A stretch of 38,663 nucleotides of DNA, from positions 1 to 38,663 of the forward strand of contig WREX01000007.1 in the NCBI GenBank assembly GCA_009779115.1. The letters are read 5' to 3'. This stretch comes from Propionibacteriaceae bacterium (GTDB taxonomy: Bacteria > Actinomycetota > Actinomycetes > Propionibacteriales > Propionibacteriaceae). Below, piece after piece: positions 2,099 through 29,734 of the stretch. The translations under genes and the position numbers were made by a program. How positions within the stretch are numbered: position 1 is the first letter of the stretch; each line of letters opens with the position of its first letter. The notes under the pieces are model-generated. The model saw nothing but the letters and a program-made list of their open reading frames with translations, was not told where the DNA came from and searched no databases.

Positions 2099-3859
2099 AT
2101 GATTTTTCGGGCGCTGAGTCCAGCCACTGAAGCCACATCCCCAGGAAATCAGAATTTATCGGATGCTAGACTAACGTTCATGCCTGATGGCACCGAAAAA
2201 AACAGCAAACAAGATGCCAAACGTATAGGTCGTCGGAGCAGTCTGCCTGATACTCCATGGCGGTGGGACACCCTGGGTGACAACCCGGAATGTATGGGGT
2301 GTGCGGGGTGTGTAGCGGCCTGTCCATTCGATGCTCTGTCAATGGGTAGCGATGCTCTTGGGTATTTTCGGCCTATCTTGGACCCATCGAAATGCCCTGA
2401 GTGTGGACTCTGTGTGCGGATGTGCCCGGCCATAGTACTTCCTAAAAAACCGTCTCAAGAGATGCCGCAGTTGTATGCGTTTGTTGGTGCTAATCCGGAT
2501 GAGGTGCGAAACAGCACATCTGGTGGTATTTTTCCCCTACTCGCCAAGGCAGTCCTGGATCAGGGCGGGAAAGTGGTCGGCACCCAGTGGACGAAGGAAT
2601 TGGGCGCTGAGAGTGTCATCATTGATGCCGTCGATCAAATCAAGCCACTTCAGAAATCGAAGTATGTGCAGCCGTGGACCGGTTCAACATTCCGATCAAT
2701 CCAGGAAGAGTTGAAGGCTGGACTCCTGGTCCTGTACACAGGCCTGCCTTGTCAGTGTGCAGCGTTGCGAGCATTTTTACACAAGTCGTACAGCAATTTG
2801 TTTGTTGTTGACATCCTCTGCGGTATGGCACCTTCAACGGCATATTTCCAGTCCTACGTTGGTGAGACGTGGGGAAAGGACAACGTTGCCCAGTACGAAT
2901 TTAGATACAAGTCTGAGCAAGCAAAGTGGCACGAGCACGCAGCGAAGGTGACGATGCGCAATGGCCAAGTAACGGTTGTTGACCGATGGTCTGATCACTA
3001 TCAACTCATGTACCACGACCACACCATGTCACCTAACCACTGCGAACACTGCACGTACCAAGCTGTTCCCCGATATGGAGACCTGAGCATCGGTGACTTC
3101 TGGGGTATCACTCAACACGACCGAGCGATTCCGACAGCAAATGGCGTCAGTGCCATACTGGTGAACACTCCCAAAGGGCAAAAATTGCTTGATCTTGTTA
3201 AACCTGATGATACAACTATCTTAAAGGAGGAACCCCTAGACTATCTGGGTCAGAACGGATACGCGATTCAAGGCGGGCATGGTTTCGCCTCCCTACATCG
3301 GGATGCCTTTGTCGAAGCTTTTCGAACGACACAATCATTCGAGGCCGCCTACGCTGCCGCTAGGCAAGGGGCCGGCATCAAGTCGACTATTGACAACGCA
3401 ACTCGGCGTAGGAATTTTCGGTCTCTTACGCCACTTCACTTTGATTCCCGAGAGACTCATGTCGTAGCTGATCAAGATTCATGGGCCGTGGAGTGGCAGA
3501 ATGATGCGATCACATTCACAGTACATCCCGATGCCGTACGTAAGGGCAATCACGCGGCGTTTCGATTACCCGCAGCACTTGAACCTTCACAAGCCTACAT
3601 ACTTCGTGTGAGTGGTGATGTGACAACGAATCATGTGGAGTTCTCTCTTCACGTCAAAAATTCGACGACGGGTGAATTCAAGGTAGTCCGACGGCTCCTC
3701 ATGGACGGTCACCACGCTCGTTCGTTCGATGAGTCGATATTTCTCCAACTTCCTGGACCGGGATTTGACGAGATCATGATCGCGTCCTCACATGTGTACG
3801 GGCCGGGCGCAACCGTTGCATTTCGTCGGGTCCAACTTCAGATGGCAACAGCACAGTAG
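2099..3859 (+). CDS. 4Fe-4S / coenzyme F420 hydrogenase-dehydrogenase beta-subunit (FrhB)-like protein with C-terminal beta-rich domain
   Basis: 586 aa; two ferredoxin motifs CMGCAGCVAACP and CPECGLCVRMCP; FrhB-like SGGIFPLLAKAVLDQG, GLPCQCAALRAFL, GDLSIGDFWGI; RBS-like ggag upstream of ATG; 12 bp before the next PPT gene. Confidence 0.85.
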   Translation: MIFRALSPATEATSPGNQNLSDARLTFMPDGTEKNSKQDAKRIGRRSSLPDTPWRWDTLGDNPECMGCAGCVAACPFDALSMGSDALGYFRPILDPSKCPECGLCVRMCPAIVLPKKPSQEMPQLYAFVGANPDEVRNSTSGGIFPLLAKAVLDQGGKVVGTQWTKELGAESVIIDAVDQIKPLQKSKYVQPWTGSTFRSIQEELKAGLLVLYTGLPCQCAALRAFLHKSYSNLFVVDILCGMAPSTAYFQSYVGETWGKDNVAQYEFRYKSEQAKWHEHAAKVTMRNGQVTVVDRWSDHYQLMYHDHTMSPNHCEHCTYQAVPRYGDLSIGDFWGITQHDRAIPTANGVSAILVNTPKGQKLLDLVKPDDTTILKEEPLDYLGQNGYAIQGGHGFASLHRDAFVEAFRTTQSFEAAYAAARQGAGIKSTIDNATRRRNFRSLTPLHFDSRETHVVADQDSWAVEWQNDAITFTVHPDAVRKGNHAAFRLPAALEPSQAYILRVSGDVTTNHVEFSLHVKNSTTGEFKVVRRLLMDGHHARSFDESIFLQLPGPGFDEIMIASSHVYGPGATVAFRRVQLQMATAQ

Positions 3860-3871
3860 AGAGAGTTAATC

Positions 3872-5440
3872 ATGGGGTATGACATAGGAATAGTGGGTTG
3901 GTGGTATGGAGACAACTATGGTTCAATGGTGACCTATTATGCCTTGCACGATGTATTGTCAACAATAGGCTTCTCCACAGCGATGATCCCCTCAGGGTCA
4001 AGGCAAGAACCCGTTCAGCCACTTCCTAACACCTACCCTATTCGCTTTGCTCGGGAACACTATGCCGTTGTTGAACGCAGAACAAAACAAGCGATGGGCG
4101 AACTGAACAACGAGTTCCAGGCCTTCCTCTGCGGTAGCGACCAACTCTGGAATCCAACTATCGACATTGTCGACGACGAGAACTTTCTTTCTTTTGCCGA
4201 CGATGGAAAACTACTTGTTTCGTACGCCACGTCCTTCGGCGGCAATGCCATGGACGCCCGCTGGAAGAAACCCGTCATCCAAAGAAACATCAAGAACCTT
4301 CAGCGCTTCGATTCGGTCTCGGTCCGAGAGGATTACGGGGCAAAAATCGCTCGGGATGTGTTCGGTGTCACAGCCACATCCGTACTTGATCCAGTTTTCT
4401 TGGCAGGTCGTCCCGCCTTCGACAAACTCATCTCGGCCCCACCGATCACGGATCCTGGTGACACACTCTTCGCATTCATCCTGGATCCCACAGTAGAGAA
4501 ACGCGACACCGTCGAGCGAATTTCCCGGCAACTCGGCCTTGGAAGAATTGCCGTCATGACTGGAGCCGACCCACGGACTTTTCACGTGCTCCGCGACATC
4601 TTTGACACCCATCAGGTCCTTGATGTCATCGGAATGGATTTGTTCTTGGGTCTTATCTCGCAGTCTGCTTATATTGTGACTGATTCCTTTCATGGAACAT
4701 GTCTTTCATGGATTTATCAACGTCCATTTTCCTCATTCTTCAATGAGAAACGGGGATCAGATCGATTCGTGTATCTCATGGATCTCCTGGGGATGGAGAG
4801 TCGGCGCGTTGAAGTCGGCGCTTCAACTCAATCGCTTGCTGAAAATGGCAACGTCTCCTTTGATCTTGATTTCTCTGCGTCACGTGAACGCGTCGCACTC
4901 GAAGCAACGCGTTCTCTGTTCTGGTTGCAGCAAGCCCTGAAGCCACTTGGTGCACCACATGTGCAACCACCTGCAGAACGGAAGAACTCTGAGATCCACG
5001 AGGCAGGTGATGTTCGATCCATTTTTGACGTGGCACCTGTTCACACTCGCGTGAGGTTGGTCTCGGATTGGTCCTCATGGATAGACGAGAAGGGGATCGG
5101 CCTGAAGGTGACCCGACACGATCACGAGGGAGCCCAGCACTGGGAGTTTCCATTAGACCAACCTTTGCTTCAAGGTTTCGAGTACGAGGTCGTCATCGAC
5201 TACACCGTCGAAGAGGGTGCTGTTGAGGCGGCGTGGTCGCTCCAGGCTTCACATACGACTAATAAGCCCCTTGTTATCACTGCGGAACCCACAACCACAG
5301 AGGACGCTGCACCCATTTCCACGAGGATTCAGATTCGTGACGCTGGTGTGGACACCCTGGTCCTCAACGTGAGACTGACAACTAGCGGGTCAGCAATCAT
5401 CATTGTCCGAAGGCTCAGCATCGAACAAGTTGCGCTCTAG
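3872..5440 (+). CDS. Polysaccharide pyruvyl transferase family protein with C-terminal beta-rich domain
   Basis: 522 aa; GIVGWWYGDNYGSMVTYYAL, FLCGSDQLWNPTI, AYIVTDSFHGTCLSW (PPT signature motifs). Confidence 0.88.
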   Translation: MGYDIGIVGWWYGDNYGSMVTYYALHDVLSTIGFSTAMIPSGSRQEPVQPLPNTYPIRFAREHYAVVERRTKQAMGELNNEFQAFLCGSDQLWNPTIDIVDDENFLSFADDGKLLVSYATSFGGNAMDARWKKPVIQRNIKNLQRFDSVSVREDYGAKIARDVFGVTATSVLDPVFLAGRPAFDKLISAPPITDPGDTLFAFILDPTVEKRDTVERISRQLGLGRIAVMTGADPRTFHVLRDIFDTHQVLDVIGMDLFLGLISQSAYIVTDSFHGTCLSWIYQRPFSSFFNEKRGSDRFVYLMDLLGMESRRVEVGASTQSLAENGNVSFDLDFSASRERVALEATRSLFWLQQALKPLGAPHVQPPAERKNSEIHEAGDVRSIFDVAPVHTRVRLVSDWSSWIDEKGIGLKVTRHDHEGAQHWEFPLDQPLLQGFEYEVVIDYTVEEGAVEAAWSLQASHTTNKPLVITAEPTTTEDAAPISTRIQIRDAGVDTLVLNVRLTTSGSAIIIVRRLSIEQVAL

Positions 5441-6116: not shown

Positions 6117-7982
6117 ATGAATCGATCAGTGATCATCAACAAACTGTTGGAAAAAAGCACAAGCAGACGGTATCTCGAGATAGGTGGAGAAAGTGGAGCA
6201 AATTTCCTGTCTGTGCGAGCGAAGGACAAGGTCTGCGTCAATCCAAGGACACCGTCAGAACAGGTGACCTCTCGTCTCGGACCACATGTCCACTATCATC
6301 TCATCTCTAGTGATATGTACTTCAGTGAAAACCCTTCAACCGAGTTTGACGTGATACTGGTGGATGGTCTCCACGATGAGCAGCAAGTCCTGGCCGACAT
6401 CACTAACAGCTTGGATCACATCTCTGCTCATGGTTTTATCGTGTGCCATGATTGCCTTCCGCGCGACAAGACATGCCAACTTAACCGCAACGATTTCGAG
6501 CAGGTTTGGCAACAGGCAATCCGGGATAAAGCGCCATTTCACGCGGGTTGGACAGGTCCCGTCTGGAGAGCGATAGTCAGGATGAGAATGAGTCGGAAAG
6601 ACCTCGTCATTTTCACGCTGAATTGTGACTGGGGATGCGCTGTGATCACCCGTGGGGAACCGGACCATCTCCTCGCCACTGATACACTTCCAGACTATGA
6701 ACAATTTGCAGAGAACACAGACTATTATCTGAATCTAAAAGACCCCACCTATCTGTATGAGTTCATTTTCAAACAACGCGGCCAACCCGTTCCACGACTG
6801 TATGTGGAGGACTATGCTTCAGAAATCGAGTACCTTGCCAAGGACAGATTCTTGCCCGACGTGACCAGTTCACAGTCAATATCCCATGGAGTTATCCTCC
6901 CGTGCATTCCCGCTTCTCCAACCACCCGAGTGACGTATTTGGGCGGAGTGGTTGACAACCGCCAGCACTTTGTCGCTGGCCTTGCGAGAACTCAGAATAA
7001 CGCGACCAGGCCCCGCACCATCATCAATTCATACCCCTATGACCAAGAAAAAGTTCTCCACAGCGATGAAATAGTCTTGTTCGGAGGTGGGGTATGGGGC
7101 CACTTTGGCCATGTTTTAGTGGATGCTTTAAGTCGACTCTGGTGGCTGGCAAGAAATCCACAATACACCGGCAGAGTTGCGTACGTCCTGATGGGAACAA
7201 GGTTACTTTATAGACCATTTGTCGACATAATGGCCTTGCTAGGAGTCCCCGAAGAAAAAATTCTCATTGTTGAACAACCAACTCAGTTTTCCGAGATCCT
7301 AGTCCCCGATCAGACCTTCTTCTCTTACGATAGTGGGTATAAAGAGAAGTTTACAGAGATCTTCCACACAATCAGGGATCAGGTCCGACCTGGAAACCTC
7401 AGCAAAGTGTATTTGACGCGAACACAACTCACCAAGCAAGACACTGTTAACGAGGAATACTTCGAAACATTCTACAGAAACCATGGATGGAACATTGTCG
7501 CGCCAGAAAAGTTGTCGGTAGCCGAACAAGTTTCGATGATTGCTGGAGCTGATGAACTCGCCTGCGTTGAAGGGACTCTATCGCATCTTGTATTATTCGC
7601 GAAAGAAGATGTGAAACTCACTATTTTAAAACGCACTTCCGCTCACACTGTTCCCCAATCAATCATCAACCAAGCCACTGGAATAGACGTCACCTACGTT
7701 GATGTGAGTATGAACTTTCTGCCCACAAGCCATGCCACAGGAGCATTTCTCATGGGGCCAACACCCTTTTTCCGGCAATACGCTTGGGACCAATACCAAG
7801 AATCTGTGCCAGACTTCGACATTGATTCGTATGTCGCTGACTACATCAGAGTATGGGTTAGAAGACACGGTTCGTCACGAGGAGGATTCGGATACATACG
7901 CAATCGCACCCCAGTCGACTTCGTAGAATCTCTGAGCAAATACGTCTCAGGCCACATGGTCGACAGAAAAACAATCATCTGA
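6117..7982 (+). CDS. Fusion: class I SAM methyltransferase (N-term) - DUF563/GT61-family glycosyltransferase (C-term)
   Basis: 621 aa; N-term RRYLEIGGESGANFLSV...FDVILVDGLHDEQQVLADI (SAM-MT); C-term VLFGGGVWGHFGHVLVDALSRLWWL...VYLTRTQ...EGTLSHLVLF (GT61/DUF563); RBS aggag upstream. Confidence 0.8.
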   Translation: MNRSVIINKLLEKSTSRRYLEIGGESGANFLSVRAKDKVCVNPRTPSEQVTSRLGPHVHYHLISSDMYFSENPSTEFDVILVDGLHDEQQVLADITNSLDHISAHGFIVCHDCLPRDKTCQLNRNDFEQVWQQAIRDKAPFHAGWTGPVWRAIVRMRMSRKDLVIFTLNCDWGCAVITRGEPDHLLATDTLPDYEQFAENTDYYLNLKDPTYLYEFIFKQRGQPVPRLYVEDYASEIEYLAKDRFLPDVTSSQSISHGVILPCIPASPTTRVTYLGGVVDNRQHFVAGLARTQNNATRPRTIINSYPYDQEKVLHSDEIVLFGGGVWGHFGHVLVDALSRLWWLARNPQYTGRVAYVLMGTRLLYRPFVDIMALLGVPEEKILIVEQPTQFSEILVPDQTFFSYDSGYKEKFTEIFHTIRDQVRPGNLSKVYLTRTQLTKQDTVNEEYFETFYRNHGWNIVAPEKLSVAEQVSMIAGADELACVEGTLSHLVLFAKEDVKLTILKRTSAHTVPQSIINQATGIDVTYVDVSMNFLPTSHATGAFLMGPTPFFRQYAWDQYQESVPDFDIDSYVADYIRVWVRRHGSSRGGFGYIRNRTPVDFVESLSKYVSGHMVDRKTII

Positions 7983-8139: not shown

Positions 8140-11100
8140 CTACAGGTCAAGGTACTTACGCCAGAACTCGGCAGAATGAAAAGTACTCGAGTAGTCACGG
8201 TATCGCTGGCAGATTGCAGAACCGTCCGTTTCATAGCGTGACAGCAGTGTGTCATGTCGCATGATCAATTCCGTGTATCGCTTCCGGTCCATGGTGTGTA
8301 CCACAGCAGTCTTGTCGTGAATATTGACCGATAGAACTCTCTTCCGCAAGAATTGTTTGCCTGGTGACACGAAATACAAGTGGGCAACTTCAGGAACAGT
8401 GTCATCTCTGAGGAGATAATCTGGCAGCAAATGTCCGTTATCTGTGTCTTCGAATAGCTTCATGTCCTCCATGCCCAGAGCTGCATATTCATACACTCTG
8501 CTCTCATCAAGGGGATAACCGAGAGTGTCATATGGGTACAGCTTTTCATTTCTCGCGCTTTGCGCCTTAATAACCTGCTCCCCATCAAGGTTGACATAGT
8601 ATTCCGGCCCCTTCAAATAATCCTCCAGGGCATCAAGCAGATGCTCTGCAGCTTGATAATTGAACTTTCGGATCTCTTCTCTGAATAATCGTTCAATTCG
8701 TTTCACATAGTCCACTTGAGGAACAATACTGCTAATTGCCTGGGCAATCAGTGCGTTTCTGATCACCAAGTAGTACTCAAGCGATGTGGTCACTTTCGCA
8801 TCAAAGCCCATATGCCACACACATATACCATTAAACGCAATGAAGCCAGGATTATTCCTGAGACTGAACTCAACATCGTCGCCTCGGTAAAAAATTGGTA
8901 TTGTTAAAGAATCCTCAGCGACGTATTGCATGGGTATACAGCAATACCACCACCCGGCGTACATGTGCTCAAGGCTATATTCAATATCATTGCGAAGGAT
9001 GGCATCACTCTCGTGTAAAAGGTATCTTGGTTTCACAGGCGTATGGATGCCAAGTTGCGTTGAGACGTAACCAACGTCCTCGTGCTGCTCATTCATTTGA
9101 TCGAGATCGAGCATTGCCCCGGAAATAAATTTTCCTCGATGCTCATCCTTCAGCAACCTCAACAGAGCATACGTACGCTTCAGTGTTTCCGGCAATAGCT
9201 GAACGTCATCATCCATGAGAAGGATATGTGTTGCCGCAAACTCACCTCGCTCGCTGAGAGCTAAGGTTTCCAACATTCCACGTGTGAATCCTCCCGATCC
9301 ACCTGTGTTGATGTTGTGATGGAGCCTCATCCGATATCCATTAAAATCCTCTGGATCCAGGGTTCGTCCATTATCCACTATGTTGACAAACAAATGCTTT
9401 GACAAGTCATCCATTCCCCCAGTCCGAGGATTGACCAGTACTTCACGATTTATTAACTCAGCATTTCTGGTGACATAATCCTCTTTCTTGAACGTTGTGG
9501 TACACAAAGAAATGTCAACCCGATTGAGGTCTTCTTCATAGCAAAGAACTGAATACCAACCTTCATACAACTCGCAAGGCGTTTCCGCGATGATTTCGAA
9601 GCCAACGATGGAGGCATCTTGATACAGAATTGGCACGACAACTTCCCCTGAATCGGAGTTCGATTCCCCTGATTCCTCACAATTGAAGATATATTCCTTC
9701 AAAGCCTCTTCTTTAACCACCGCTTCACCAACGATTTGATGACAGAAACTTCTTCTCGCCGCATCACCGATCGGGAGAGCAAGAGTCTCTTCCAATTGAT
9801 GATCCATACTCTTGTGGCTTTGATCAGCGTTCTCGCTCTTGGGTTCAAGCCAGCGACCAAATAACCGGACACGAAACTTTCCTTTAACCCTCAAATGCAA
9901 AAAAAACTTGGTAGATATCGAGTATTTTGTCCATTTTTTGACTGCTAGCGAGTTGAAATAGGTAAAGAACTCCACACTTCCTTCAGTCAATGTCCAAAAG
10001 GGGTTAATTGGGTTGCCATTGTAGAACAACCGAGTGCCACGATGAAACAACCACCAGTGGTCATTCTTCCATTCGCAATCTGGCAACATAAGGTTCTGGA
10101 TTTTATAATGCACTGGTTGATAAACGGGTTTCGGCGAAACATGTTCATCGCAACCAGAGATGACGGACATATCGTCTGCCAACGGCTCACTCTTGGGCAT
10201 TGCACTTGCAAGTGCTTCCTGCAGCCACGTTTCAGCCTTCTTGCGCATGAATTCGACCTGTGGGTTTACCACAGCGTAGTTGATCGCACGATTGAATAAT
10301 TGTTCCCAGCCGGGTGGCAAGTCATCAATGTTCAGTATCTGCTGTGTCAGGTGCATGGGGTTGAGAGTGTCAGCAGCAACGCGATCGCTCCCGTCACTAG
10401 CGGTAGTCATCAAGACGAATGGCTTGTTTAGGACAATAGAAACAATTGCGATTCCAGGATCGTCTGTTATAACAAGCGCCGCATTACCAATGTGAGCCAA
10501 ATACTCGACTGCTCCCATCGACGGATCCGCATTGATTGGTTTTAAACCACAGTACTGCTCAGCAGCATTGGAGATATCCCACTTAGTTCTATCTGCAGAA
10601 CTCAGACATACAGCTGCGTATGCCTCGCTGCTACTCGGGGTAACCCCTTCCGTAATACTCGCGATGTCAGCATTCTGCAATAGTAAAAGCGGTGAAGATA
10701 ACGCATCGGATTCCAATGCATAGTCATGGTTCAGTATTCGCTTACTACTGGAAGCAGCCGCAGAAATCTTGGAAAACCGATGAAGACAATCCTTTGCAAA
10801 GCGCATATATTCTTGAGGAGCATAATAATCAAGTGGAAATTCAATCTCAAAGGCAACTTTAGGCTTACTCTCCGGAACAAAGTCCAAGTAATAATAGTGT
10901 CCCGAACTGCCATTCAAGCCATAGTCCAATGCATCCCCAAAGACAACAAAAGAAGAACATGTCTTGATAGCTGACATGTATTCAGTTTGTGTCTGTAGGA
11001 CAGGAAAAATACTGCACCGATCCAGTATGAGTCTTCCGGCCCCGGAGTGAGCGCCCGCATAGTCCATGGGCGCATTGAAAAACACAGGATCATAACCAAG

Positions 11101-11271
11101 TTTTTTTACATACTCAAAAACTGCCCAGGCACTGAGTTCAGAGACAATACTTCCAAACCAGTTCCCAATCATTCCAAGCTTGGTTCCATCGCCCACAAGC
11201 TCAACCTGTGGGCGACTCACACCAACGGACTCGCTGGACAAGGTTGGTTCTACATTCCGACTCGAAAGCAT
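8140..11271 (-). CDS. Fusion: degenerate polysaccharide pyruvyl transferase-like domain (N-term) - GlfT2-like galactofuranosyltransferase (C-term)
   Basis: 1043 aa; C-term HHNINTGGSGGFTRGMLETL, HILLMDDDVQLLPE, YAGWWYCCIP, YRGDDVEFSLR, CVWHMGFDAK (GlfT2 features); N-term GMIGNWFGSIVSELSAWAVFEYVKKLG...FVVFGDALDYGLNGSSGHYYYLDFVPESKPKVAFEIEFPLDY aligns with PPT domains in this window. Confidence 0.82.
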   Translation of the reverse strand: MLSSRNVEPTLSSESVGVSRPQVELVGDGTKLGMIGNWFGSIVSELSAWAVFEYVKKLGYDPVFFNAPMDYAGAHSGAGRLILDRCSIFPVLQTQTEYMSAIKTCSSFVVFGDALDYGLNGSSGHYYYLDFVPESKPKVAFEIEFPLDYYAPQEYMRFAKDCLHRFSKISAAASSSKRILNHDYALESDALSSPLLLLQNADIASITEGVTPSSSEAYAAVCLSSADRTKWDISNAAEQYCGLKPINADPSMGAVEYLAHIGNAALVITDDPGIAIVSIVLNKPFVLMTTASDGSDRVAADTLNPMHLTQQILNIDDLPPGWEQLFNRAINYAVVNPQVEFMRKKAETWLQEALASAMPKSEPLADDMSVISGCDEHVSPKPVYQPVHYKIQNLMLPDCEWKNDHWWLFHRGTRLFYNGNPINPFWTLTEGSVEFFTYFNSLAVKKWTKYSISTKFFLHLRVKGKFRVRLFGRWLEPKSENADQSHKSMDHQLEETLALPIGDAARRSFCHQIVGEAVVKEEALKEYIFNCEESGESNSDSGEVVVPILYQDASIVGFEIIAETPCELYEGWYSVLCYEEDLNRVDISLCTTTFKKEDYVTRNAELINREVLVNPRTGGMDDLSKHLFVNIVDNGRTLDPEDFNGYRMRLHHNINTGGSGGFTRGMLETLALSERGEFAATHILLMDDDVQLLPETLKRTYALLRLLKDEHRGKFISGAMLDLDQMNEQHEDVGYVSTQLGIHTPVKPRYLLHESDAILRNDIEYSLEHMYAGWWYCCIPMQYVAEDSLTIPIFYRGDDVEFSLRNNPGFIAFNGICVWHMGFDAKVTTSLEYYLVIRNALIAQAISSIVPQVDYVKRIERLFREEIRKFNYQAAEHLLDALEDYLKGPEYYVNLDGEQVIKAQSARNEKLYPYDTLGYPLDESRVYEYAALGMEDMKLFEDTDNGHLLPDYLLRDDTVPEVAHLYFVSPGKQFLRKRVLSVNIHDKTAVVHTMDRKRYTELIMRHDTLLSRYETDGSAICQRYRDYSSTFHSAEFWRKYLDL

Positions 11272-11557
11272 ACTACCCCTTTCGATAAATTATCTGACAT
11301 GCCCCACAACAAGTCTGAGCTGTTCCTTCGACAGATTCACACCATTCCAAAGAATGTATCGTTGTCATGTAAGGCAGCAACCTGCATTATATTAGCATTC
11401 AGCTGTCGACAGAGAGACGGTCCAGAACACATTTCAGAAGATGAGCCCCTAATTACTTTAGTCATTTCTCGAGCGAAGACATACAAAACCATCAATGATG
11501 AGATATTCAGTCGTAGGATGAAGGGGTTAGAACAGTAATCAAAAAATGGAGGATTCT

Positions 11558-14530
11558 ATGTATGATGTGGCTCTTGTTGGAGTGGGAACCGGCGCAAACT
11601 ATGGTTCTGCCCTTTCCTACTTCGCCATTGTTGAGACTATCCAGAGCATGGGGAAGTCGGTTCTCCTTATCAACAAGATCGGAACATCCTCGAGTGACAG
11701 GGAGGCATCAAACGACAACCCATCCCTGGCCTTCGCTCGACAGAATGTCGCAGTTAGTAGTTCTTTTTCCTTTGACGACATCCACCAGGTGAACGACATG
11801 GCTGAAACGTTTGTGGTGGGGACAGACCAAGTATGGAATTACGGCATCTCGCGAGGGTTTCGGGACAGCTTTTATCTTGACTTCGTCGATGCAAGCAAAA
11901 GAAAAATATCTATAGCCTCATCATTTGGGCATCCGATCGACTTTGTGCCTGATGACGTCCGGCCAAGGCTGGACAAACTGTTTAAGCGTTTCAATGCCAT
12001 ATCTGTACGAGAATATTCGGCGGTAGACCTGATGAAGAGCAAGTATGGACTGACGCCGACTCAGATACTTGAGCCCATCTTCTATGTCTCAAATGATCGT
12101 TACTTCGAATTGGCACAGAAAGCGACCGTTCTGACGGCTCAACCATATCTACTGTCCTACCTTCTCGACAAGACTGATGAAAAACAACAGGCGGTAGAAG
12201 CAATGGCTAATAAGTTAGGCCTTGAAATCCGAGAATTGCCTGACGGAATGGCGGCCGTGCAGACGAGGGCAGAGGCTTTGTTCACGCCAAACGATGTGCT
12301 GCAGTTGTTCAAGAACGCCTCCTACGTGATCACTGACTCATTCCACGGGACGTCTTTTTCGATTAAGTTCAATAAAAATTTTGTGTCATTCGTGAACAGA
12401 CGTCGGGGGGTCACTCGTTTCGACACAATTTTTAATATTATTGGAGACGAGAGTCGGAAAGTTTATAATCCAGTGGATGTCACATCCGACGTGAGCAAGT
12501 TCATCGACGGTTTTGATTATTCCACCATCAACGAGTCGATCCGGAATGAGGTTTCCCGGGCGAAGAACTGGATCAGGGAGGCATTGGCCAAGGACATACA
12601 TCAGCTAGTAAAGGCTCCTAACCTGGCACAGCCCGAGATTGAAAAATTCCTGACAAGCAGAACCTTCAGCTTTGGCAGAGTTTCCGACAATGTGACGTTT
12701 TCCCGGAGTTGGATATTTCTACGCAACGGAAGTATTGGCGGATATGACAATGAAAATGAACGCAAGTGGAGAGTCGTTGATGACACTTTGGAAATCCTCA
12801 ATGACAATAACGAAGTAACGTCGTCGTTTCCACTATCAAAGCAATACAAGAAGGGCATGATCGGTCACAGTATCAAGTCCAACGACGTGGAACTCTTTCT
12901 ACGGACAAAAAGACCCTACGACATGGTTCAAGTAAAAATCCTGGTATCTTTACTGAAACAGCACGGAATCCAACACATTGTCGCCTCTTCCGGCACCAGA
13001 GATGTCTCCATTCTTCGAATGATCGAGAGGAACTCAGACTTTTTTAAGGTTCATCCAATGGGAGATGAACGATCAGCGGCCTATTTTGCTCATGGCCTCT
13101 CGATCAAGCTTGGTAAACCTGTTGCTTTGGTATGCACGTCTGGAACAGCAGCCTCCAACTATTTGCCTGGGGTAAGCGAAGCATATTACTACCACACGCC
13201 TCTTGTCGTGATTACGGCTGACAGACATCCAATGTTTCTAAATAATCATGATGATCAGACTATTCCCCAATCGGACATGTATAGGGGAGTGGTGAAGAAA
13301 TCTGTAACACTAACATCCGGTGAGCATTCCCGCTTTGAGTGGTTTGCCACGAAAGAGATCCAATCCACCATTCTCGAAGCCACTCACGGGACTCCTGGCC
13401 CCGTACATATCAACATTCCTATTCTGACAATCGAGCGTTCTGCGCCCGAAGACGAAGACTTCGAACTCCTCAAGACACGACTTGTCAAGCGGATCACTCG
13501 TCATGATCCAGAGAGTGCTTGGAACGCTTACGCCAACACCTTAAAACGTACAGACAGAATAATGGTTTTGTATGGTCAGAATCAACCATTGGCGGAGGAT
13601 AAGAGTGAAAGAATCCAAGATTTCGCTCGGACCTACCATGCTGTTGTAATTGCTGAGCACATCTCGAACGTGCACGGGCCTCGCGTCGTAAACCCATTTC
13701 ACTTCTTGTCTCAAGTTTCCCAGCGTGACTTCAACCGGGATCTCATGCCCCAGGTGTTGATATCGGTCGGTGGGACTCAAATCATGAATCACCCAATTAC
13801 CGGACTACTGCGTGGTTCCAGTAACAAAATGAGGCACTGGATCGTCGACCCAAACGGTGATTACACGGATAAGTTCTATCATCTGACTTCCATCATTGAG
13901 TGTAACCAAGACTATTTCTTCGACTTTTTAATTCGCAAAGGTGAGCAGCTCGACAAAGGGGATGTGTACTTTCAGACATGGATGGATCGTTTGGCAGAAC
14001 ATCCACAGCTTGAGACCGGAACAAGTCAATATGATCAGTTCAATATTGAAGGAAAACTACTATCTCATTTACCACAAGGTTCAATGCTTCACCTGGGGAT
14101 TGGGAACACTTTCATGATGACTCAACATTTCGCTCTCCATCCAAGCATCGAAGTTCAGTGCAACATGGGAACAAATGGCATTGATGGTTCTGCATCGACT
14201 TTCATGGGCCAGCTACTTGCTACTCCAACAACACAATATGCATTTTTACTCATAGGTGATCTGTCGTTCTTCTACGACATGAATTCTGTCATCAATAAGC
14301 CATTGACGAGAAATATCCGTATCATGTTAATTAACAACGGAAAAGCTGGATTACTTGAGCATCACAAAGTGGATTCGATCACCCAGTCGTTCACGGCTAC
14401 CGCACGGGGATGGGTTGAGTCACTTGGGTTTTCCTACATATCAGCCCGAAATACCAGTGAATTTGACTCCCAGTTATCAGTATTTGTCTCTGATCGACCT
14501 GAACCGCTTTTCTTTGAGGTGTTCATCTAA
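11558..14530 (+). CDS. Fusion: polysaccharide pyruvyl transferase (N-term) - short linker domain - MenD-like ThDP-dependent enzyme (C-term)
   Basis: ORF given as 11546..14530 (994 aa); ATG at 11558 preferred because ggagg lies just upstream. PPT motifs GVGTGANYGSALSYFAI, VVGTDQVWNYG, YVITDSFHGTSFSI; MenD-like motifs ASSGTRD, GDERSAAYFAHGLS, CTSGTAASNYLPGVSEAYY, VVITADRHP...DQTIPQ, GDLSFFYDMN...IMLINNGKAGLLE. Confidence 0.85.
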   Translation: MYDVALVGVGTGANYGSALSYFAIVETIQSMGKSVLLINKIGTSSSDREASNDNPSLAFARQNVAVSSSFSFDDIHQVNDMAETFVVGTDQVWNYGISRGFRDSFYLDFVDASKRKISIASSFGHPIDFVPDDVRPRLDKLFKRFNAISVREYSAVDLMKSKYGLTPTQILEPIFYVSNDRYFELAQKATVLTAQPYLLSYLLDKTDEKQQAVEAMANKLGLEIRELPDGMAAVQTRAEALFTPNDVLQLFKNASYVITDSFHGTSFSIKFNKNFVSFVNRRRGVTRFDTIFNIIGDESRKVYNPVDVTSDVSKFIDGFDYSTINESIRNEVSRAKNWIREALAKDIHQLVKAPNLAQPEIEKFLTSRTFSFGRVSDNVTFSRSWIFLRNGSIGGYDNENERKWRVVDDTLEILNDNNEVTSSFPLSKQYKKGMIGHSIKSNDVELFLRTKRPYDMVQVKILVSLLKQHGIQHIVASSGTRDVSILRMIERNSDFFKVHPMGDERSAAYFAHGLSIKLGKPVALVCTSGTAASNYLPGVSEAYYYHTPLVVITADRHPMFLNNHDDQTIPQSDMYRGVVKKSVTLTSGEHSRFEWFATKEIQSTILEATHGTPGPVHINIPILTIERSAPEDEDFELLKTRLVKRITRHDPESAWNAYANTLKRTDRIMVLYGQNQPLAEDKSERIQDFARTYHAVVIAEHISNVHGPRVVNPFHFLSQVSQRDFNRDLMPQVLISVGGTQIMNHPITGLLRGSSNKMRHWIVDPNGDYTDKFYHLTSIIECNQDYFFDFLIRKGEQLDKGDVYFQTWMDRLAEHPQLETGTSQYDQFNIEGKLLSHLPQGSMLHLGIGNTFMMTQHFALHPSIEVQCNMGTNGIDGSASTFMGQLLATPTTQYAFLLIGDLSFFYDMNSVINKPLTRNIRIMLINNGKAGLLEHHKVDSITQSFTATARGWVESLGFSYISARNTSEFDSQLSVFVSDRPEPLFFEVFI

Positions 14531-16294: not shown

Positions 16295-19270
16295 TTACAA
16301 TTCATCCTCAAGTTCTTGTTGAATGCTCGCCCCCAACGGAAGCAGATCAGCCTCTGTGATAAATACTCTGTTTTCCGCCCTAATGCCAACTGATTGCGTC
16401 GCCGCACGACTCTCCAGCATCAACGCCTTCCAAGCATAACCACTGTACTGGCCATTGTACGCGCCGTAGAACAACATGGTTGAGTCATGAATCTCAAGGG
16501 ATATACAGCTTTCCAGATCAGCCCCCTCCCTTTCCCATTCAGCTTGATGAACCTTCAGTTCGAAAGATCCCGATTCGCTCATCCAAGTGGCAGCCACGCG
16601 GAAGGTGTCGTCACTGAACGGTCCAACATTGCGTAACCACATAAACTGGATAATGGCACTCACATCTGAGTAGTCGAAGGGCTCAAGTTCTACAGAGAAT
16701 AGTAGAGCACGCATCGCCTCTCCCGGTGGGGGGGGAGGGCACGTAAAGATACGCTTGCCATAAAGACTACCTGTCTCACCTGGGGCATTTTGATCCATTC
16801 TCGGAACAACCTGCTGCATCTCCTCTGGCGGTATCTTAGTGGCCTTAACACTGGCTAGGTGCTGGGATTCCAGCAACAGTCTTGCATGGTCGCTGTAACT
16901 CAATTCAATATTTCCCTCTCCTTGACCCATCTTTACCCCGTATACCTCACGAAGGTCTAACCAATGGGAATGCATTGTAGTCAGCCCTCGATGGGAATCC
17001 CAATACAAGTCCAAATCATCTGGATGATCCATAAAGTGAATGACCTTGTCTTGAAAATCCCTTGTGTCTCCAACTCGGAAGCGGAAAAGACCGCTGTCGC
17101 TCAGCTCTGATGCTCCACCTGCACTGGAACACAACACCGGCACGCCATGTGCTACCATCTCAAGAGCAATTTGAGGCAGATTATCCTCCCACAAAACTGG
17201 AACAATGCCAAGGTTGCAGCCATACAGAATCGCTCCCAAGTCGGAGTGTTGATAACTCACCCGAACACTCACCGAACGAAAATTACTGCACATACTGAAG
17301 ATTTCCGAATGCTCAACGTTCTTGGTCGTCATCACTAGATCAATTTTTCTGGCGTATTCCGGAGGGAAGCTATACAGCGCGTCTAACAGCCACGGATATC
17401 CCTTTTCTTCGAAATTAATATCACCTCCAAGGAAAACGAGGCGGAGTCCATCATGTCGATCTGCGAGAGAGCGTTGAACTTGTCCCTCAGCAACAGGTGA
17501 ACCAATATAGGATACAATGGTCTTTTGTTGATCGATTCCCTCGGCTGCAATAATTTCTGCCACTCGCTTGGATACAGCCAGAATAGAGTCGCAATTCTCA
17601 TTAATCTTTTCGACTGCAGTCCTGGCGAATTCGATCACATCTGTCGGACTGGCTTCCTCATCCAGTCTGTTCAAACCCAGGTCTCGAAGCCACCTACTTT
17701 GTGACATGCATTTTGCTCGATCATTGTTAAATAAGCCTCTTTCCCAAGTCTTACTGCCGATCTGTCGGTCGATGTCAGCATCAAGGCAGGAACGGCAGTC
17801 TGCAGCGGTATGTTCTGGCGTGCATATCCGATGCTTGTGTCGCATATAGTAATAACCAGTTGCGCACACGGTCATGTAGTTGTGAGCCGAATATATGAAC
17901 CTCGTGTCAGGCAATTCACGCCGTAAGTCAAAGATGTCAAGAGACAACCCTTCAACATTATTGAAATGAACAACTGAGAATCCTCCAAATCCCAGAATAA
18001 AATCCCGCAACACCGACTGGATTGCCGGATTTTCCACTGCAATACCAGGATTCATATAAATATTTCGCTGATCAGCAGGAACTGGAGAATTGACAATTTC
18101 AAATTGTTGCAGTTTACTACTACTCGTCTTACTGAGGCGCCTCACATAAGTGTCGGAGCGAGTGGAATCATATGCGAAGCCACTGGATAAGAAACATACT
18201 TCGGCTGTGGGCTCCATCTCCAAAATAGCTTCAACCAAATTACGACAATAGACCGTCACACCACCACCGACATCCCACGGATTATCAAAAGGAACATAGT
18301 TGTACAGAAGAATCCTGGTAGAAGGCTCGATCTCATATTCGTATAGTGGCGAATTCCATGTATAGTAAATCACCTGCATTTTAGGATCAAGCACTCTAAT
18401 GATGCTCTGGTCAAGAAGAAGCACAACCCTATGGGCCAATTTTTGGAGTCGATTGATATTTCCGTTCTCGTGCAAGAGAAGATCGACGAAGAGTAAAACA
18501 AGCTTATAGAGCGTCTCAATCGACGACTCCCGGGCCTGATTGTTGGCCAACACTTTGGGTAACACAGTGCCAAGCTTTTGGAAAGCCTGTGCACAAGTGT
18601 TGGTATCCACCCCTTCCTCACTGTCGTGGTCGATTCTGTGAGCCAGCGAGTAGGGAATATATAGCGCCGTATTCGCGACACCGCAGGCTTCAAAAACGAA
18701 TAAGCGTTTCGCCCACCTATCGTTGGCGATTGCACTTGAGAGTTCTGGCCTGAGGCCTGCTCTCTGCAACCAATCCCTGGAAAAGAAGAGGTCGCCCATG
18801 AAACACTCCTCCCAGAACGAGTCCCGTAAATCAGCAAAACTGAACTGTTCCACGATGCTTGATCGACTAGTTGCAGAAGACTCCGTGGGAAAAACTTCAG
18901 CACCGGATCTGGGCTCTGCGCGTGTGTGCCGGGCTAGAATCAGGTCTGGATAACCATTCTCTGAAGCGGTGGCAATCACACTGAGGGTTCGTTCGATATC
19001 CAACGCATCGTCTCGGCTCAGGAATGCCACATAGGAACCATGAGCAGACATCAATCCGGCGGCAGTCCGATCACCCCAAGTGATTCCCCCTTGCACTCCT
19101 GCCGGGTGCACGCTTCTACTATCGATCCCTAACTGGATAAAGGACTCTTCCCCGTCACTCACGATCACCTCAACCTGACTTTTCAGGTCTCGATCAAGCC
19201 CGTCAAAGCAATTGGCCAACCTCCAGGAGTGAACAGAGTCCATTGAGACAATCGACAATTGACATGACAT
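16295..19270 (-). CDS. Multi-domain glycosyltransferase: GT2-like N-term, GT4 middle, beta-rich C-terminal domain
   Basis: 991 aa; SQVEVIVSDGEES...FLSRDDAL (GT2-like); RILLYNYVPFDNPWDVGGGVTVYCRNLVEAIL, LRLVFLGGDINFEEKGYPWLLDAL, IVPVLWEDNLPQIALEMVAHGVPVLCSSAGGASEL (GT4); RBS ggagga upstream. Confidence 0.82.
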   Translation of the reverse strand: MSCQLSIVSMDSVHSWRLANCFDGLDRDLKSQVEVIVSDGEESFIQLGIDSRSVHPAGVQGGITWGDRTAAGLMSAHGSYVAFLSRDDALDIERTLSVIATASENGYPDLILARHTRAEPRSGAEVFPTESSATSRSSIVEQFSFADLRDSFWEECFMGDLFFSRDWLQRAGLRPELSSAIANDRWAKRLFVFEACGVANTALYIPYSLAHRIDHDSEEGVDTNTCAQAFQKLGTVLPKVLANNQARESSIETLYKLVLLFVDLLLHENGNINRLQKLAHRVVLLLDQSIIRVLDPKMQVIYYTWNSPLYEYEIEPSTRILLYNYVPFDNPWDVGGGVTVYCRNLVEAILEMEPTAEVCFLSSGFAYDSTRSDTYVRRLSKTSSSKLQQFEIVNSPVPADQRNIYMNPGIAVENPAIQSVLRDFILGFGGFSVVHFNNVEGLSLDIFDLRRELPDTRFIYSAHNYMTVCATGYYYMRHKHRICTPEHTAADCRSCLDADIDRQIGSKTWERGLFNNDRAKCMSQSRWLRDLGLNRLDEEASPTDVIEFARTAVEKINENCDSILAVSKRVAEIIAAEGIDQQKTIVSYIGSPVAEGQVQRSLADRHDGLRLVFLGGDINFEEKGYPWLLDALYSFPPEYARKIDLVMTTKNVEHSEIFSMCSNFRSVSVRVSYQHSDLGAILYGCNLGIVPVLWEDNLPQIALEMVAHGVPVLCSSAGGASELSDSGLFRFRVGDTRDFQDKVIHFMDHPDDLDLYWDSHRGLTTMHSHWLDLREVYGVKMGQGEGNIELSYSDHARLLLESQHLASVKATKIPPEEMQQVVPRMDQNAPGETGSLYGKRIFTCPPPPPGEAMRALLFSVELEPFDYSDVSAIIQFMWLRNVGPFSDDTFRVAATWMSESGSFELKVHQAEWEREGADLESCISLEIHDSTMLFYGAYNGQYSGYAWKALMLESRAATQSVGIRAENRVFITEADLLPLGASIQQELEDEL

Positions 19271-19294: not shown

Positions 19295-20491
<1,197 letters not shown>

Positions 20492-22780: not shown

Positions 22781-23404
22781 TGATTACCTCTCTCCAGAGC
22801 TATTTTGCCTTTCTGCGAGGATCAGCGTAACACACTCGTGTCAACTCGAACACAGCGTGTGAAATCCCTAGACGATCGCTTGAAACCCTCTGTCGGCACT
22901 CACAGCCCCCACACGGTTTCCAGGCAAAACTACACAAGTTCCGGTAAATCACATTTCGAGATGTACTCCGGAATTGGTCCTGCGTAAGACCGCTCATCAT
23001 CACAGATACCGTAAGCATACATGGATCAAAAATAATACCTGTTTGGTGTCCGGAAAGCAGAAAATGAAGTCACAGGACCAACGGGCTTGCCTAGTCCAGA
23101 CGTCAATTCCAGTACGTTAGAGTCATTGCCACTGGAGCCGTAAACTGCATCCTTCTGTCCCTTCGTGTAGCCCATCTGTTTCACTCTGAGCGCGATAAAG
23201 GCTGATCTCAGCACTCACGAGGAAACCAGGTGTGACGAGACCCGGTACAAGGTGACAGCCCCTCCGATGTCTCGCCCGATCGAGCAGCACTGGCCCTATA
23301 CCATCAGGATTGGAAGGGTCCCATATACTCTGATGGTGTGACCTGCATACCTGGCATTTATCTTTCTCGAGTCTTCGATAGACGAGGTTGAGAAGGAGCC
23401 ACTC

Positions 23405-26032
23405 ACGAGCAAATATCTCTTCACCATCGTCATCCCCATCTTCAATTCCGCGAAGTACCTCCCCGCTACACTCCATTCACTCGACTGGCAGACCTACCCA
23501 CATTCGCGCATTCAGATCATTTTGGTTGATGACGGTTCCAACGATGAGTCAGGCTCCATCGCCCACGCCTGGGCATCCGATAGAAAAAACGTCGCCGTGA
23601 TGACACAAACTAACAGTGGTCCTTCTGTCGCCAGGAACCGAGGACTGGACGCGGCCGCAGGAGAATGGTTCGCCTCAGTTGATGCCGACGACATCCTTGA
23701 CAAACACTATTTCGCCTCCGTCGCCGATGTGCTCGACAGGGATCTCGACAAGGTGTCTTCAGCCGTGTGCACACACCTTTGGATGCTCGATAGCCAGACT
23801 GGTCGCGCGAATGACACACATGCGTTGGGTGAGAAGTTCAGACATGGTGACAGACTGGTTGATCTTCGAGATGAACCGAGTGCTTTCGCCCTGAGCAGCA
23901 CCACTTTCTTGCGAACAGCAGTCCTGCGGGAAAACGGTCTTCGCTTTGATCCGGCTGTTCAGCCGACTTTCGAGGACGCCCATCTCATCGGAAGATACCT
24001 TGCGTGTTTCGAGGCCCCGGTGATGGCGATCGCTTCACGTGCTCGTTACTATTATCGTCATCGGGTAGCACTTTCGACTTCCCTGACTCAAGCCACGTGG
24101 CAGAAATCCGAAAACTATACCGTTGTCCCACGCGTGGGGTATCTCGGCATGCTCACTGCCATCCAGGCCAGGCTCGGACAAACCCCACTTTGGGCCCAAT
24201 ACATGATTCTGTACTCAATCATGTGGTATCTGTCTGAAGAACAGTCGATGACTTCAAAGACAGCCTGGGTCGACACTGAGACCGCGACCCAATTCCTCCA
24301 AACGCTGGAACAGATCATGAGATATATCGACCTCAGTACGATCGAAGATTTCCCTGTCACTCAACTAACCTGGGAGATGAGACAGGCTCTCCTGGTACGG
24401 TTCAAGGCTTACCCACAAATGCCCCGTGTCTTCAATCTTCCCAAGAGAGGGAGGATAGCTCGCGTGACAGTCTTCTTCCACGGAGATTCTCCCGCTTTCT
24501 CTATCAGATCCGATGACGGCACCCGAGCTTTCGATATTGAAATGCAGCGTTCCCATGTCTATTTCGGTGAGGAATGGGCGACTCAAGTGACATTGGCCTG
24601 GGACACGGGCACAACCGAACCGACCTCAGACTCTGTATGGACCGATGGTGTCCAGACACAGCTCAGGCATGTTATCCCTCCGCAACGACAGTCACCAACC
24701 ACCAGTCGATTCCGGTTCAGCTCAGAACAATCAGATAATGGGCTTGATCGGGTTGTCGATCAGATCGGGAGAGTCTTGAGGATAGCCCCCCTGGCGACAA
24801 GCCGATCCATGCCACGGACTGTCACAGAGAGTCTGAGTCGTCAACGCGATCGACTCATTCACCGGCACCGCATCCGGATGACGAAAGCAGTACAGCGCAA
24901 AACTAGTAACGGTCGTTGGCCACAGTACGCCAACGCATGGGTGGTCATGGATCGAACGAACACTGCCGACGACAACGGGGAACACCTGTACCGCTATCTC
25001 AAGTTCTCTCGACCTGAAATAAACGCATACTTTTTATTGTCAAAGACCTCACCACACTGGAATAGGCTTGCATCCGAGGGGTTTCGTCTAATCGAATACG
25101 GCAGCAGGATGGCGACAGTGATTGCTCTCCACGCGGCAGTGAGGATCTCCTCGGACATCGTGCCATCCTGCCTGTATCCGGTGACCCAACAAGATGATGA
25201 TGCGTTGCCAGGCATTTTCGTCTTTCTTCAGCACGGAGTCATCGTAAACGACTTGTCCCGGTGGGTGAACGGCAAACCGATTGCCTTGATGACCACTTCC
25301 ACGTTGGCAGAATGGGCCAGTATCGTTGGGCCTGGTTCTCCGTACTCCCTCACCACGAAGCAAGTCGAACTTCTGGGGCTCACTCGCTGGGATCGGTTGA
25401 CGACCCTTCGGTCGGCTCAAGTGAATACAGACACTATTCTTGTCGCCCCGACGTGGCGCGCCGATCTGGAACGCGATCTGGCAACATGTCTCAACCAGGA
25501 TTCCCGGCGTCAAGTTTTCGAAGAGTCCGACTATTGGCAGGCTTGGCATAAACTACTTCATTCTCCAGCTCTTGCTTCCTCCGGCAAGCATATTCACTTG
25601 ATTCTCCACCACCGTCTGAACGCTCTGGTTCCCGAACTCGACTTGCCACCCTACGTCACCCGACTCACTGGCGATGAGATCAACTACCAACAAGAATTGT
25701 CCAGAGCATCGCTGTTCATCACCGATTTTTCTTCGCTGGCATTCGATGCAGCCTACGTGGGTTTGCCTGTGGTCTACTACCAGTGCGACAAAGATAGTTT
25801 CCTCACAAGCCATACATCTCGGCCGGGGTATTTCTCCCATGAACGCGACGGGTTCGGACCAGTCGTTTACGACGCGGAGGCAGCCTGCGTCGCCATCCAG
25901 AACATCATGGATGCCCACTACACAACCAGTGAACCCTACCTGTCCCGGATACAGAATACTTTTGCCTTTCACGACACCGATAACTGTGCCAGAACTGTCG
26001 CTGCCATCGAACGGAAACTGAAGGAGACGTGA
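23405..26032 (+). CDS. Fusion: GT2 glycosyltransferase - CDP-glycerol glycerophosphotransferase (TagF-like); start codon uncertain
   Basis: ORF track starts at 23522 mid-motif, but the frame is open back to a TGA at 23339-23341 and encodes SKYLFTIVIPIFNSAKYLPATLHSLDWQTYPHSRIQIILVDDGSND; C-term ILVAPTWRADLE...HHRLNALVPE...ASLFITDFSSLAFDAAYVGLPVVYYQCD (TagF). No in-frame ATG/GTG/TTG near the agaaggag at 23391-23398; ACG at 23405 sits where a start is expected. Confidence 0.75.
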   Translation, partial: TSKYLFTIVIPIFNSAKYLPATLHSLDWQTYPHSRIQIILVDDGSNDESGSIAHAWASDRKNVAVMTQTNSGPSVARNRGLDAAAGEWFASVDADDILDKHYFASVADVLDRDLDKVSSAVCTHLWMLDSQTGRANDTHALGEKFRHGDRLVDLRDEPSAFALSSTTFLRTAVLRENGLRFDPAVQPTFEDAHLIGRYLACFEAPVMAIASRARYYYRHRVALSTSLTQATWQKSENYTVVPRVGYLGMLTAIQARLGQTPLWAQYMILYSIMWYLSEEQSMTSKTAWVDTETATQFLQTLEQIMRYIDLSTIEDFPVTQLTWEMRQALLVRFKAYPQMPRVFNLPKRGRIARVTVFFHGDSPAFSIRSDDGTRAFDIEMQRSHVYFGEEWATQVTLAWDTGTTEPTSDSVWTDGVQTQLRHVIPPQRQSPTTSRFRFSSEQSDNGLDRVVDQIGRVLRIAPLATSRSMPRTVTESLSRQRDRLIHRHRIRMTKAVQRKTSNGRWPQYANAWVVMDRTNTADDNGEHLYRYLKFSRPEINAYFLLSKTSPHWNRLASEGFRLIEYGSRMATVIALHAAVRISSDIVPSCLYPVTQQDDDALPGIFVFLQHGVIVNDLSRWVNGKPIALMTTSTLAEWASIVGPGSPYSLTTKQVELLGLTRWDRLTTLRSAQVNTDTILVAPTWRADLERDLATCLNQDSRRQVFEESDYWQAWHKLLHSPALASSGKHIHLILHHRLNALVPELDLPPYVTRLTGDEINYQQELSRASLFITDFSSLAFDAAYVGLPVVYYQCDKDSFLTSHTSRPGYFSHERDGFGPVVYDAEAACVAIQNIMDAHYTTSEPYLSRIQNTFAFHDTDNCARTVAAIERKLKET

Positions 26033-27310
26033 TCAGAGCTTCAGCGACTGACGCACGTTGCGTACCCTGGCTATCAATGCTTGAGACGTTCCAGGTTCAG
26101 CCTGCGTATCCATCGCCCGTGTCAGGGCAAAGCGTCTGGCGGTGAAGTCCCCAACCGATACTGGTTTGGGAAAACGAATGGATTTCAACTTCTGGTCGAA
26201 TTTTCGTGGTGACTGACCTGGGAGGTACACGTGGGCTAGGTCGTTGCGCCGCAGGAACTCAGTCACGCGCTCCCATCGCTCGCTGTGACCCGTGAGAGTC
26301 GCCTCCCAGCTGGCCCCGGCGTAAAGGTCAGCGGCGTCGACATCAGTCTGGCCTGTCAGGATCTGGCGGGGGATTTCGTGGTAGTCGGCCAATTCCAAAG
26401 TACGCGAGTCGTGCGCAAGAACAACGGCAGGGACACCGGCCAACAAGGCGACGATATTCCCGTGAATCCTGGAGCCGAATGAGAAGTCGAAGCCGGACAG
26501 ATGGCGAATCCAGGTGGTCGGGTCCACACAGAACCTGGTCCTGTTCTGGCTCAACAGCGGGTGGTCCAAGGTGGTTGGAGAACCCTCTGGTTGGGGCTTC
26601 TTGGCATAGTACGTCCCGGTCAGCATCAGGCCCAGGGTGAGGTGGTCTTGGGCTGTATATATAAGGTTCTGATATCGTGCAGCGTGGTCTAATGAAATTG
26701 GCCCCATTTTAGGGACATACGGAGAGATATTCATCGAGATGCGTGATTGTTCCGTGATGGCCTCGACCGTCTTTGTGATGCTCAGGTTCGGCCCGGCCAT
26801 GAACATGGACGGACAACCGATCACGTCGACCACATCGGACCCAAAACCCAGGCGCTTGAGATAGCCGGCTGTGACCTCTCCACGGACGCCCATGGTGGCC
26901 GACCGGTTCAACACGCTTGAAACAAACTCTTTCACGATGGCGTCGAGGCCGGAGGCTGGGATTCGCCCGCTCACTGGGCCCTGGCAACCTACGCCGAGGA
27001 CCACGACGGGGATGGTGAGCCGATTGAAGAGGTCGGTCATCGCCTGGAGTTCATCGGTGAAGGATTTCCGGAAGGCATCAGCCAAAGGCACGACGACCAA
27101 GTCGTAATTTGCGTTGACTCGATCTGGGTCAAGGTTCACGAATTTGCGGGCGTCGATCTTCGTCCCCTGCGTGGACAGAAGTCGGTAGACCGATTGGGAA
27201 AAGACCAGGTTGCCGACATTGTTGCCGATGAGGTTCTTGGAGAGAGTCTTGCCCGCGCTGGCCACACGGAACGGGCTCTTGTGAGCACGTAGCAGAATCC
27301 GCATCGGCAC
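26033..27310 (-). CDS. Polysaccharide pyruvyl transferase family protein
   Basis: 425 aa; GNNVGNLVFSQSVYRLL, YDLVVVPLADAFRKSF, VVVLGVGCQG, FSFGSRIHGNIVALLAGVPAVVLAHDSRTLELADYHEIP. Confidence 0.82.
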   Translation of the reverse strand: MPMRILLRAHKSPFRVASAGKTLSKNLIGNNVGNLVFSQSVYRLLSTQGTKIDARKFVNLDPDRVNANYDLVVVPLADAFRKSFTDELQAMTDLFNRLTIPVVVLGVGCQGPVSGRIPASGLDAIVKEFVSSVLNRSATMGVRGEVTAGYLKRLGFGSDVVDVIGCPSMFMAGPNLSITKTVEAITEQSRISMNISPYVPKMGPISLDHAARYQNLIYTAQDHLTLGLMLTGTYYAKKPQPEGSPTTLDHPLLSQNRTRFCVDPTTWIRHLSGFDFSFGSRIHGNIVALLAGVPAVVLAHDSRTLELADYHEIPRQILTGQTDVDAADLYAGASWEATLTGHSERWERVTEFLRRNDLAHVYLPGQSPRKFDQKLKSIRFPKPVSVGDFTARRFALTRAMDTQAEPGTSQALIARVRNVRQSLKL

Positions 27311-29704: not shown

Positions 29705-29734
29705 GGCGTTGTCCGCGGGCGCAGGAGTTGAGAC

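Follow-up and report, generated by a model that had tools for sequence, protein, structure and literature searches.

A Predicted Pyruvyltransferase Pseudoenzyme Fused to a GlfT2-Type Galactofuranosyltransferase in a Propionibacteriaceae Genome

Introduction

Among the described pyruvyltransferases (PPTs), CsaB of Paenibacillus alvei and Pvg1p of Schizosaccharomyces pombe (5AX7) share a two-Rossmann fold. In CsaB, residues R148, H308 and K328 bind PEP; the single variants R148K, R148Q, H308A and H308R are inactive, and H308S and H308K are partly active (PMC10435577). The DQ-type PPTs (PF04230) of gut bacteria are often modules of multidomain proteins, combined with FrhB/Fer4 domains, MenD-like TPP enzymes or nitroreductases.

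A galactan-building transferase working with a PPT is known from Klebsiella O1, where WbbY and WbbZ are separate proteins, the PPT is active and the chain consists of galactopyranose. WbbZ adds pyruvate to the Gal at the non-reducing terminus of the galactan and halts the galactan's polymerase in a PEP-dependent manner, i.e., a PPT of this type targets the growing end of a galactan that another protein polymerizes (PMC10629545). For galactofuranose, a 5,6-pyruvylated residue has been described in the Klebsiella K12 capsule (PMC6801904). The M. tuberculosis galactofuranosyltransferase GlfT2 requires two Asp motifs, D256-D257-D258 and D371-D372, and forms a tetramer, the central cavity of which is a proposed determinant of chain length (PMC7168186). 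A literature search returned no paper on a fusion of a PPT with a galactofuranosyltransferase, and no enzyme pair making pyruvylated galactofuranose in Gram-positive bacteria.

The window analyzed here, the entire 38,663-nt contig WREX01000007.1 of a Propionibacteriaceae assembly (GCA_009779115.1; 2.25 Mb, 231 contigs, 64.6% complete), encodes such a fusion. Its N-terminal domain shares whole-domain homology and the predicted fold with the DQ-type PPTs, but lacks their PEP-site residues and has a glycosyltransferase as its partner instead of a redox or TPP enzyme. The equivalents of R148/R217 and H308/H339 of CsaB and Pvg1p are missing, and in contrast to the WbbY-WbbZ pair the PPT is fused and predicted to be dead. 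The C-terminal half follows the order of M. tuberculosis GlfT2 (4FIX/4FIY) and its actinobacterial and clostridial relatives, i.e., a Glft2_N region, a GT-A domain and a C-terminal helical part, with the DDD, GWW, DD and WH residues likewise kept; however, none of the GlfT2 matches seen carries an N-terminal PPT-like module.

Architecture of the Fusion Protein

The open reading frame (ORF) of 1043 aa lies at positions 8140-11271, as proposed in a first-pass annotation of the window, and is read from the minus strand (from 11271 to 8140), a strand that the annotation had not given; the plus strand carries many stops in this region. The protein consists of a PPT-like domain (aa ~30-357), a short linker of ~28 aa and a full-length GlfT2-type galactofuranosyltransferase (aa 386-1043; Table 1). 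Stand-alone clostridial GlfT2 proteins of ~615-632 aa align end to end from ~aa 386 with 36-42% identity, the closest relative (42%) being that of Pseudoruminococcus, and therefore a complete PPT-like domain is joined to a complete GlfT2.

Table 1. Coordinates of the fusion protein's parts and of related genes in the window.
Feature	Position	Strand	Evidence
PPT-like, predicted catalytically degenerate domain	10201..11184	-	aa 30-357; subfamily profile, AlphaFold, Foldseek to Pvg1p 5ax7
Ala172-Ala173 replacing Arg-Glu of the SVRE motif (CsaB R148 equivalent lost)	10753..10758	-	Alignments
TDDPGI replacing TDSFHG, aa 269-274; His to Gly273 (CsaB H308 equivalent lost)	10450..10467	-	PF04230 alignment
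Interdomain linker, aa 358-385	10117..10200	-	Low-pLDDT tail; clostridial stand-alone GlfT2s start at ~aa 386
Full-length GlfT2-type galactofuranosyltransferase	8140..10116	-	aa 386-1043 plus stop; 4FIX match, Glft2_N, clostridial identity
Divergent neighbor: intact PPT (aa 6-347) fused to MenD-type TPP enzyme	11546..14530	+	PF04230 2.3e-24; NCBIfam menD 253.6 bits, cut-off 244.2
Another intact PPT of the neighbor's subfamily; probably an active partner	3872..5440	+	PF04230 8.8e-15; PPT profile E 4.9e-113
FrhB/Fer4 protein; in Clostridia fused with PPT as one polypeptide	2099..3859	+	
UDP-galactopyranose mutase (source of UDP-Galf, the donor substrate of GlfT2)	19295..20491	-	GLF 1.6e-77
PPT of another subfamily	26033..27310	-	PF04230 2.8e-15; no match with subfamily profile

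Residues 548-896 match the sequence of M. tuberculosis GlfT2 4FIX in a phmmer search (E 9.5e-24), and residues 430-472 match Glft2_N at 3e-4, under the curated cut-off. The GlfT2 features previously read by eye in this half (NTGGSGG, DDD, GWW, GDD and WH) were all found, with DDD at 687-689, GWW at 773-775, DD at 798-799 and the His of WH at position 820, and the homology extends over the full length. The C-terminal enzyme thus appears to be an intact processive galactofuranosyltransferase of the GlfT2 type.

The GC content by codon position is coding-like in the PPT-like domain and shows no break at the join with the GlfT2 half. The occurrence of the fusion in one genome only, and in a fragmented and incomplete assembly, might indicate an assembly chimera; as the two halves meet in frame precisely where native GlfT2 begins, the composition does not change there and the ORF is single and uninterrupted, such an artifact is very improbable.

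Homology and Predicted Fold of the N-Terminal Domain

The first ~360 aa had been noted to resemble the PPT half of the divergently encoded neighbor, and this resemblance was borne out by BLASTP (E 5e-13, 23% identity over 365 aa). To obtain a profile, 80 loci with PPTs of the neighbor's subfamily were collected by scan patterns that included the NYG and TDSFH columns, and 67 sequences were aligned, comprising 65 domains from these loci and two PPTs of the window. The profile matched aa 33-354 of the fusion protein over profile positions 4-349 of 349 (E 2.6e-28). At the sequence level, the homology to PPTs is thus far beyond chance, although the Pfam profile PS_pyruv_trans (PF04230) gives no match with the domain even at E<=10. 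A recent local duplication of the neighbor's PPT was considered and ruled out, as the clostridial protein L031 scores 72 bits against the domain (64 bits of these within its own PPT domain) compared to 35 bits for the neighbor.

An AlphaFold model of the domain, for which the PPT alignment served as input so that it is not independent of the PPT homology, shows two Rossmann folds with a pLDDT of 89.6 and a pTM of 0.87. In a Foldseek comparison, the model matched the solved pyruvyltransferase Pvg1p (5ax7) with an E-value of 6.4e-6 and TM-scores of 0.49/0.54, the same level as the intact neighbor PPT modeled likewise (E 5.6e-6, TM 0.49/0.52). A search of the PDB sequences with the PPT-alignment profile retrieved no PPT structure. 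The structure-prediction check suggested for this domain therefore yields a PPT-like predicted fold, in a model guided by PPT sequences.

The structural neighbors of the model also include GT-B-like proteins and UDP-GlcNAc 2-epimerases. The domain could accordingly have evolved another catalytic function, or come to bind nucleotide sugars, on a shared GT-B-like scaffold, and an arginine at the probable K328 position (Arg297, see below) has been kept. However, the intact neighbor PPT has the same kinds of structural neighbors, which argues for a superfold effect, the match with Epimerase_2 (E 0.012-0.048) stays under the curated cut-off and no new motif is visible. A newly acquired role of either kind is consequently regarded as improbable.

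Loss of the PEP-Binding Residues

A comparison of active-site residues revealed that both motifs previously described as altered are indeed changed, GSDQ-W reading F-G-D-A-L and TDSFHG reading TDDPGI, and in addition identified the most telling loss, missed in the first-pass annotation: the SVRE motif has become SAAA at aa 170-173. As a result, Ala172 replaces the Arg equivalent to CsaB R148 and Gly273 the His equivalent to CsaB H308. Furthermore, Ser193 is found where an Asp (neighbor position 176) is near-invariant, and Asp271 where the wider PPT family has Arg and the subfamily Ser. Retained are Asp113, Asp270 and Arg297, the last in a K/R column (27/28 K/R in the PF04230 set) and probably, as judged from spacing and alignment, the equivalent of CsaB K328.

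The Arg and His equivalents are present in 67/67 rows of the subfamily alignment. As the NYG and TDSFH columns had served as scan patterns, the invariance there is partly selected, and the count was therefore repeated on an unbiased set, the PF04230 members of the same bacterial family as picked by the Pfam profile; here, Arg was found in 28/28, His in 28/29 and the Asp at neighbor position 176 in 28/29 sequences. The domain retains 16 of the 40 strongly conserved subfamily columns, compared to at least 30 in every other row. It also lacks the subfamily motifs GSDQxW and NYG; parts of these lie near the acceptor site of CsaB (Y14, F16), so that acceptor binding may be lost as well.

Since the R148 and H308 equivalents are both lost, and unbiased PPT sets show next to no variation at these positions, pyruvyl transfer by the N-terminal domain appears very unlikely, and the earlier description of the domain as a PPT pseudoenzyme is well supported. 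A still active pyruvyltransferase with substitute residues would find some precedent in the partial activity of CsaB H308S and H308K (PMC10435577). Yet Arg, His and the invariant Asp have all been replaced, R148K, R148Q and H308A are each sufficient to inactivate CsaB, and Asp271 occupies a position held by Arg or Ser elsewhere, making retained activity highly improbable.

Distribution of the Fusion

The count of homologs with the same architecture, proposed as a check, left a single example: a second fusion of PPT and GlfT2 was not found in any of the ~1,900 genomes searched, some of them with the N-terminal part only. In 397 genomes of the order, 167 of which matched the query, no GlfT2 protein contained a PPT-like part, and the same holds for the searches of clostridial genomes. 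Relatives of the N-terminal part in 199 genomes of the family and 397 genomes of the phylum were ordinary PPTs only. Peptide-pattern scans with the N-terminal domain, which detect close relatives only, were negative in the 85,462-species and viral collections, and the PPT profile identified no PPT domain in the fetched GlfT2 loci L002-L011 and L015-L021. Apparent fusions turned out to be long open frames in high-GC genomes, their N-terminal extras representing read-through of a non-coding frame (inspected in L138 and L139). Each half belongs to a known family, and within the scope of these searches the pairing of the two is new.

With a single known fusion, cross-species conservation cannot serve as proof of selection on the PPT-like domain. 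The domain might be a mere passenger, the product of an accidental fusion in which GlfT2 was kept and a functionless PPT half drifts neutrally; the single occurrence fits this reading, as does the loss of many otherwise conserved positions beyond the catalytic ones. It is nevertheless judged quite unlikely, given a frame that has stayed open over 357 codons, a fold predicted with high confidence and coding-like codon-position GC that continues unbroken into the GlfT2 half.

Genomic Association of GlfT2 and PPT Genes

In gut Clostridia, the two functions are encoded side by side. Among the eight closest clostridial GlfT2 loci, a PPT gene lies directly downstream in six, and in five of these six it takes the form of a single FrhB-PPT polypeptide (FrhB being assigned by Pfam in the two scanned proteins and by length in the other three). 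In four loci (G958, G1315, G1214 and G1307) the open frames of GlfT2 and FrhB-PPT share 28-46 bp; the G1044 locus falls on two contigs, on one of which the 3' end of GlfT2 adjoins FrhB-PPT; and in G1191 a separate PPT follows GlfT2 after an unannotated gap of ~1.3 kb. A UDP-galactopyranose mutase (UGM) and a Wzm/Wzt exporter are each found nearby in six of the eight loci. At a more distant GlfT2 (26%) in G1188, genes for UGM, GlfT2 and a long PPT protein stand in a row. Within the family of the window itself, a PPT is encoded at most 7 kb from GlfT2 in G107, G108, G111, G168 and G187; as judged by the subfamily profile, these PPTs belong to another subfamily.

The clostridial gene pairs suggest that the fusion echoes a real partnership of GlfT2 and PPT, and action of both on the same glycan is well supported by the fusion in combination with the repeated pairing of the genes in distant taxa. 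Taken with the clostridial set of GlfT2, FrhB-PPT, UGM and Wzm/Wzt, the fusion points to a widespread pyruvylated-galactofuran pathway for which candidate proteins can now be named. Coupling of this pathway to export via a carbohydrate-binding module of Wzt, as in Klebsiella O-antigens, was considered and is unsupported, the clostridial Wzt proteins being too short at 267-335 aa. Module-bearing Wzt proteins are typically longer, with a long C-terminal module.

Pseudoenzyme halves often pair with active partners. The dead PPT could, without binding any glycan, be a protein-docking module that tethers an active PPT, e.g., the PPT-MenD protein at 11546 or the PPT at 3872, to the transferase. In favor of this reading, the window encodes intact and probably active PPTs of the same subfamily, proteins with tandem PPTs occur (PPT-PPT-TPP in L029 and PPT-FrhB-PPT in L063, L067 and L049), and GlfT2 has PPT partners in other taxa; a single fusion sequence, however, gives no measure of interface conservation, and docking is considered rather unlikely.

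A Possible Accessory Role in Galactofuran Synthesis

The explanation favored here, tentatively, is that the catalytically dead PPT serves as an accessory glycan-holding module on a working galactofuranosyltransferase and couples elongation with pyruvylation. In this model, a PPT module once active beside the polymerase would have lost its PEP-binding residues and with them pyruvyl transfer, while keeping the ability of its family to bind a galactose-containing acceptor. As a non-catalytic module it would then hold the growing galactofuran chain, thereby coupling elongation by GlfT2 with pyruvylation by the active PPTs encoded alongside. In its most economical form, the model has the module retained for holding either the chain or a partner PPT. 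As GlfT2 and PPT have adjacent genes of their own in related gut bacteria, the dead copy probably assists the galactofuran-building enzyme in working with the pyruvate-adding machinery. The first-pass annotation had proposed a PPT pseudoenzyme acting as a glycan-recognition or regulatory module in connection with pyruvylation; of this, the fold, the residue loss, the apparently intact GlfT2 and a pyruvylation context (three further PPT genes in the window and the GlfT2-PPT gene pairs) were recovered, and the glycan-holding and coupling role is hypothetical. If the dead domain does bind the chain, a pyruvyltransferase fold would have been reused as a glycan-binding module.

A more specific version would have the dead PPT read the chain end, telling pyruvylated from unmodified galactofuran termini and stopping or starting the fused polymerase, so that chain length would be set within one polypeptide; this is regarded as doubtful. 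More speculatively, the added N-terminal domain might alter the cavity of the GlfT2 tetramer and thereby the chain length.

Further Features of the Locus

Several other domain combinations were encountered. Fusions of a PPT with a complete MenD-type TPP enzyme recur in L034, L048 and L029 (Pseudoruminococcus, Lactococcus), L029 carrying two PPTs before the TPP enzyme, and fusions with a nitroreductase-like domain occur in L024, L025 and L041 (Microbacterium, Pararhizobium, Demequina). The FrhB/Fer4 gene and the PPT gene that follow each other at 2099-5440 (plus strand) in the window correspond to one polypeptide in many gut Clostridia (L027, L031, L056, L156, L159), and the FrhB unit is flanked by two PPTs in the three PPT-FrhB-PPT proteins. 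A redox FrhB/Fer4 protein tied to PPTs has no obvious role in known PEP chemistry.

The GC content rises from ~46-49% in the galactofuran part to ~60% over positions 26000-38663, where GC3 is high; this suggests acquisition of the left part of the locus from another source. An ORF at 23339-26032 (plus strand) combines a GT2 domain with a CDP-glycerol glycerophosphotransferase; its listed start, TTG 23522, lies inside the GT2 domain. The open frame continues upstream of this TTG, where the beginning of the domain is encoded (FTIVIPIFNSAKYLP) but no ATG, GTG or TTG occurs, indicating either a non-standard start or a sequence error. A methyltransferase is fused to a GT61-family glycosyltransferase at 6117-7982 (plus strand), and at 16295-19270 (minus strand) an N-terminal stretch that by eye resembles a GT2-type domain is fused to a GT4-type glycosyltransferase. 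Finally, two similar secreted or membrane-anchored proteins with a common C-terminal domain are encoded in tandem at 35891-38482 (minus strand).
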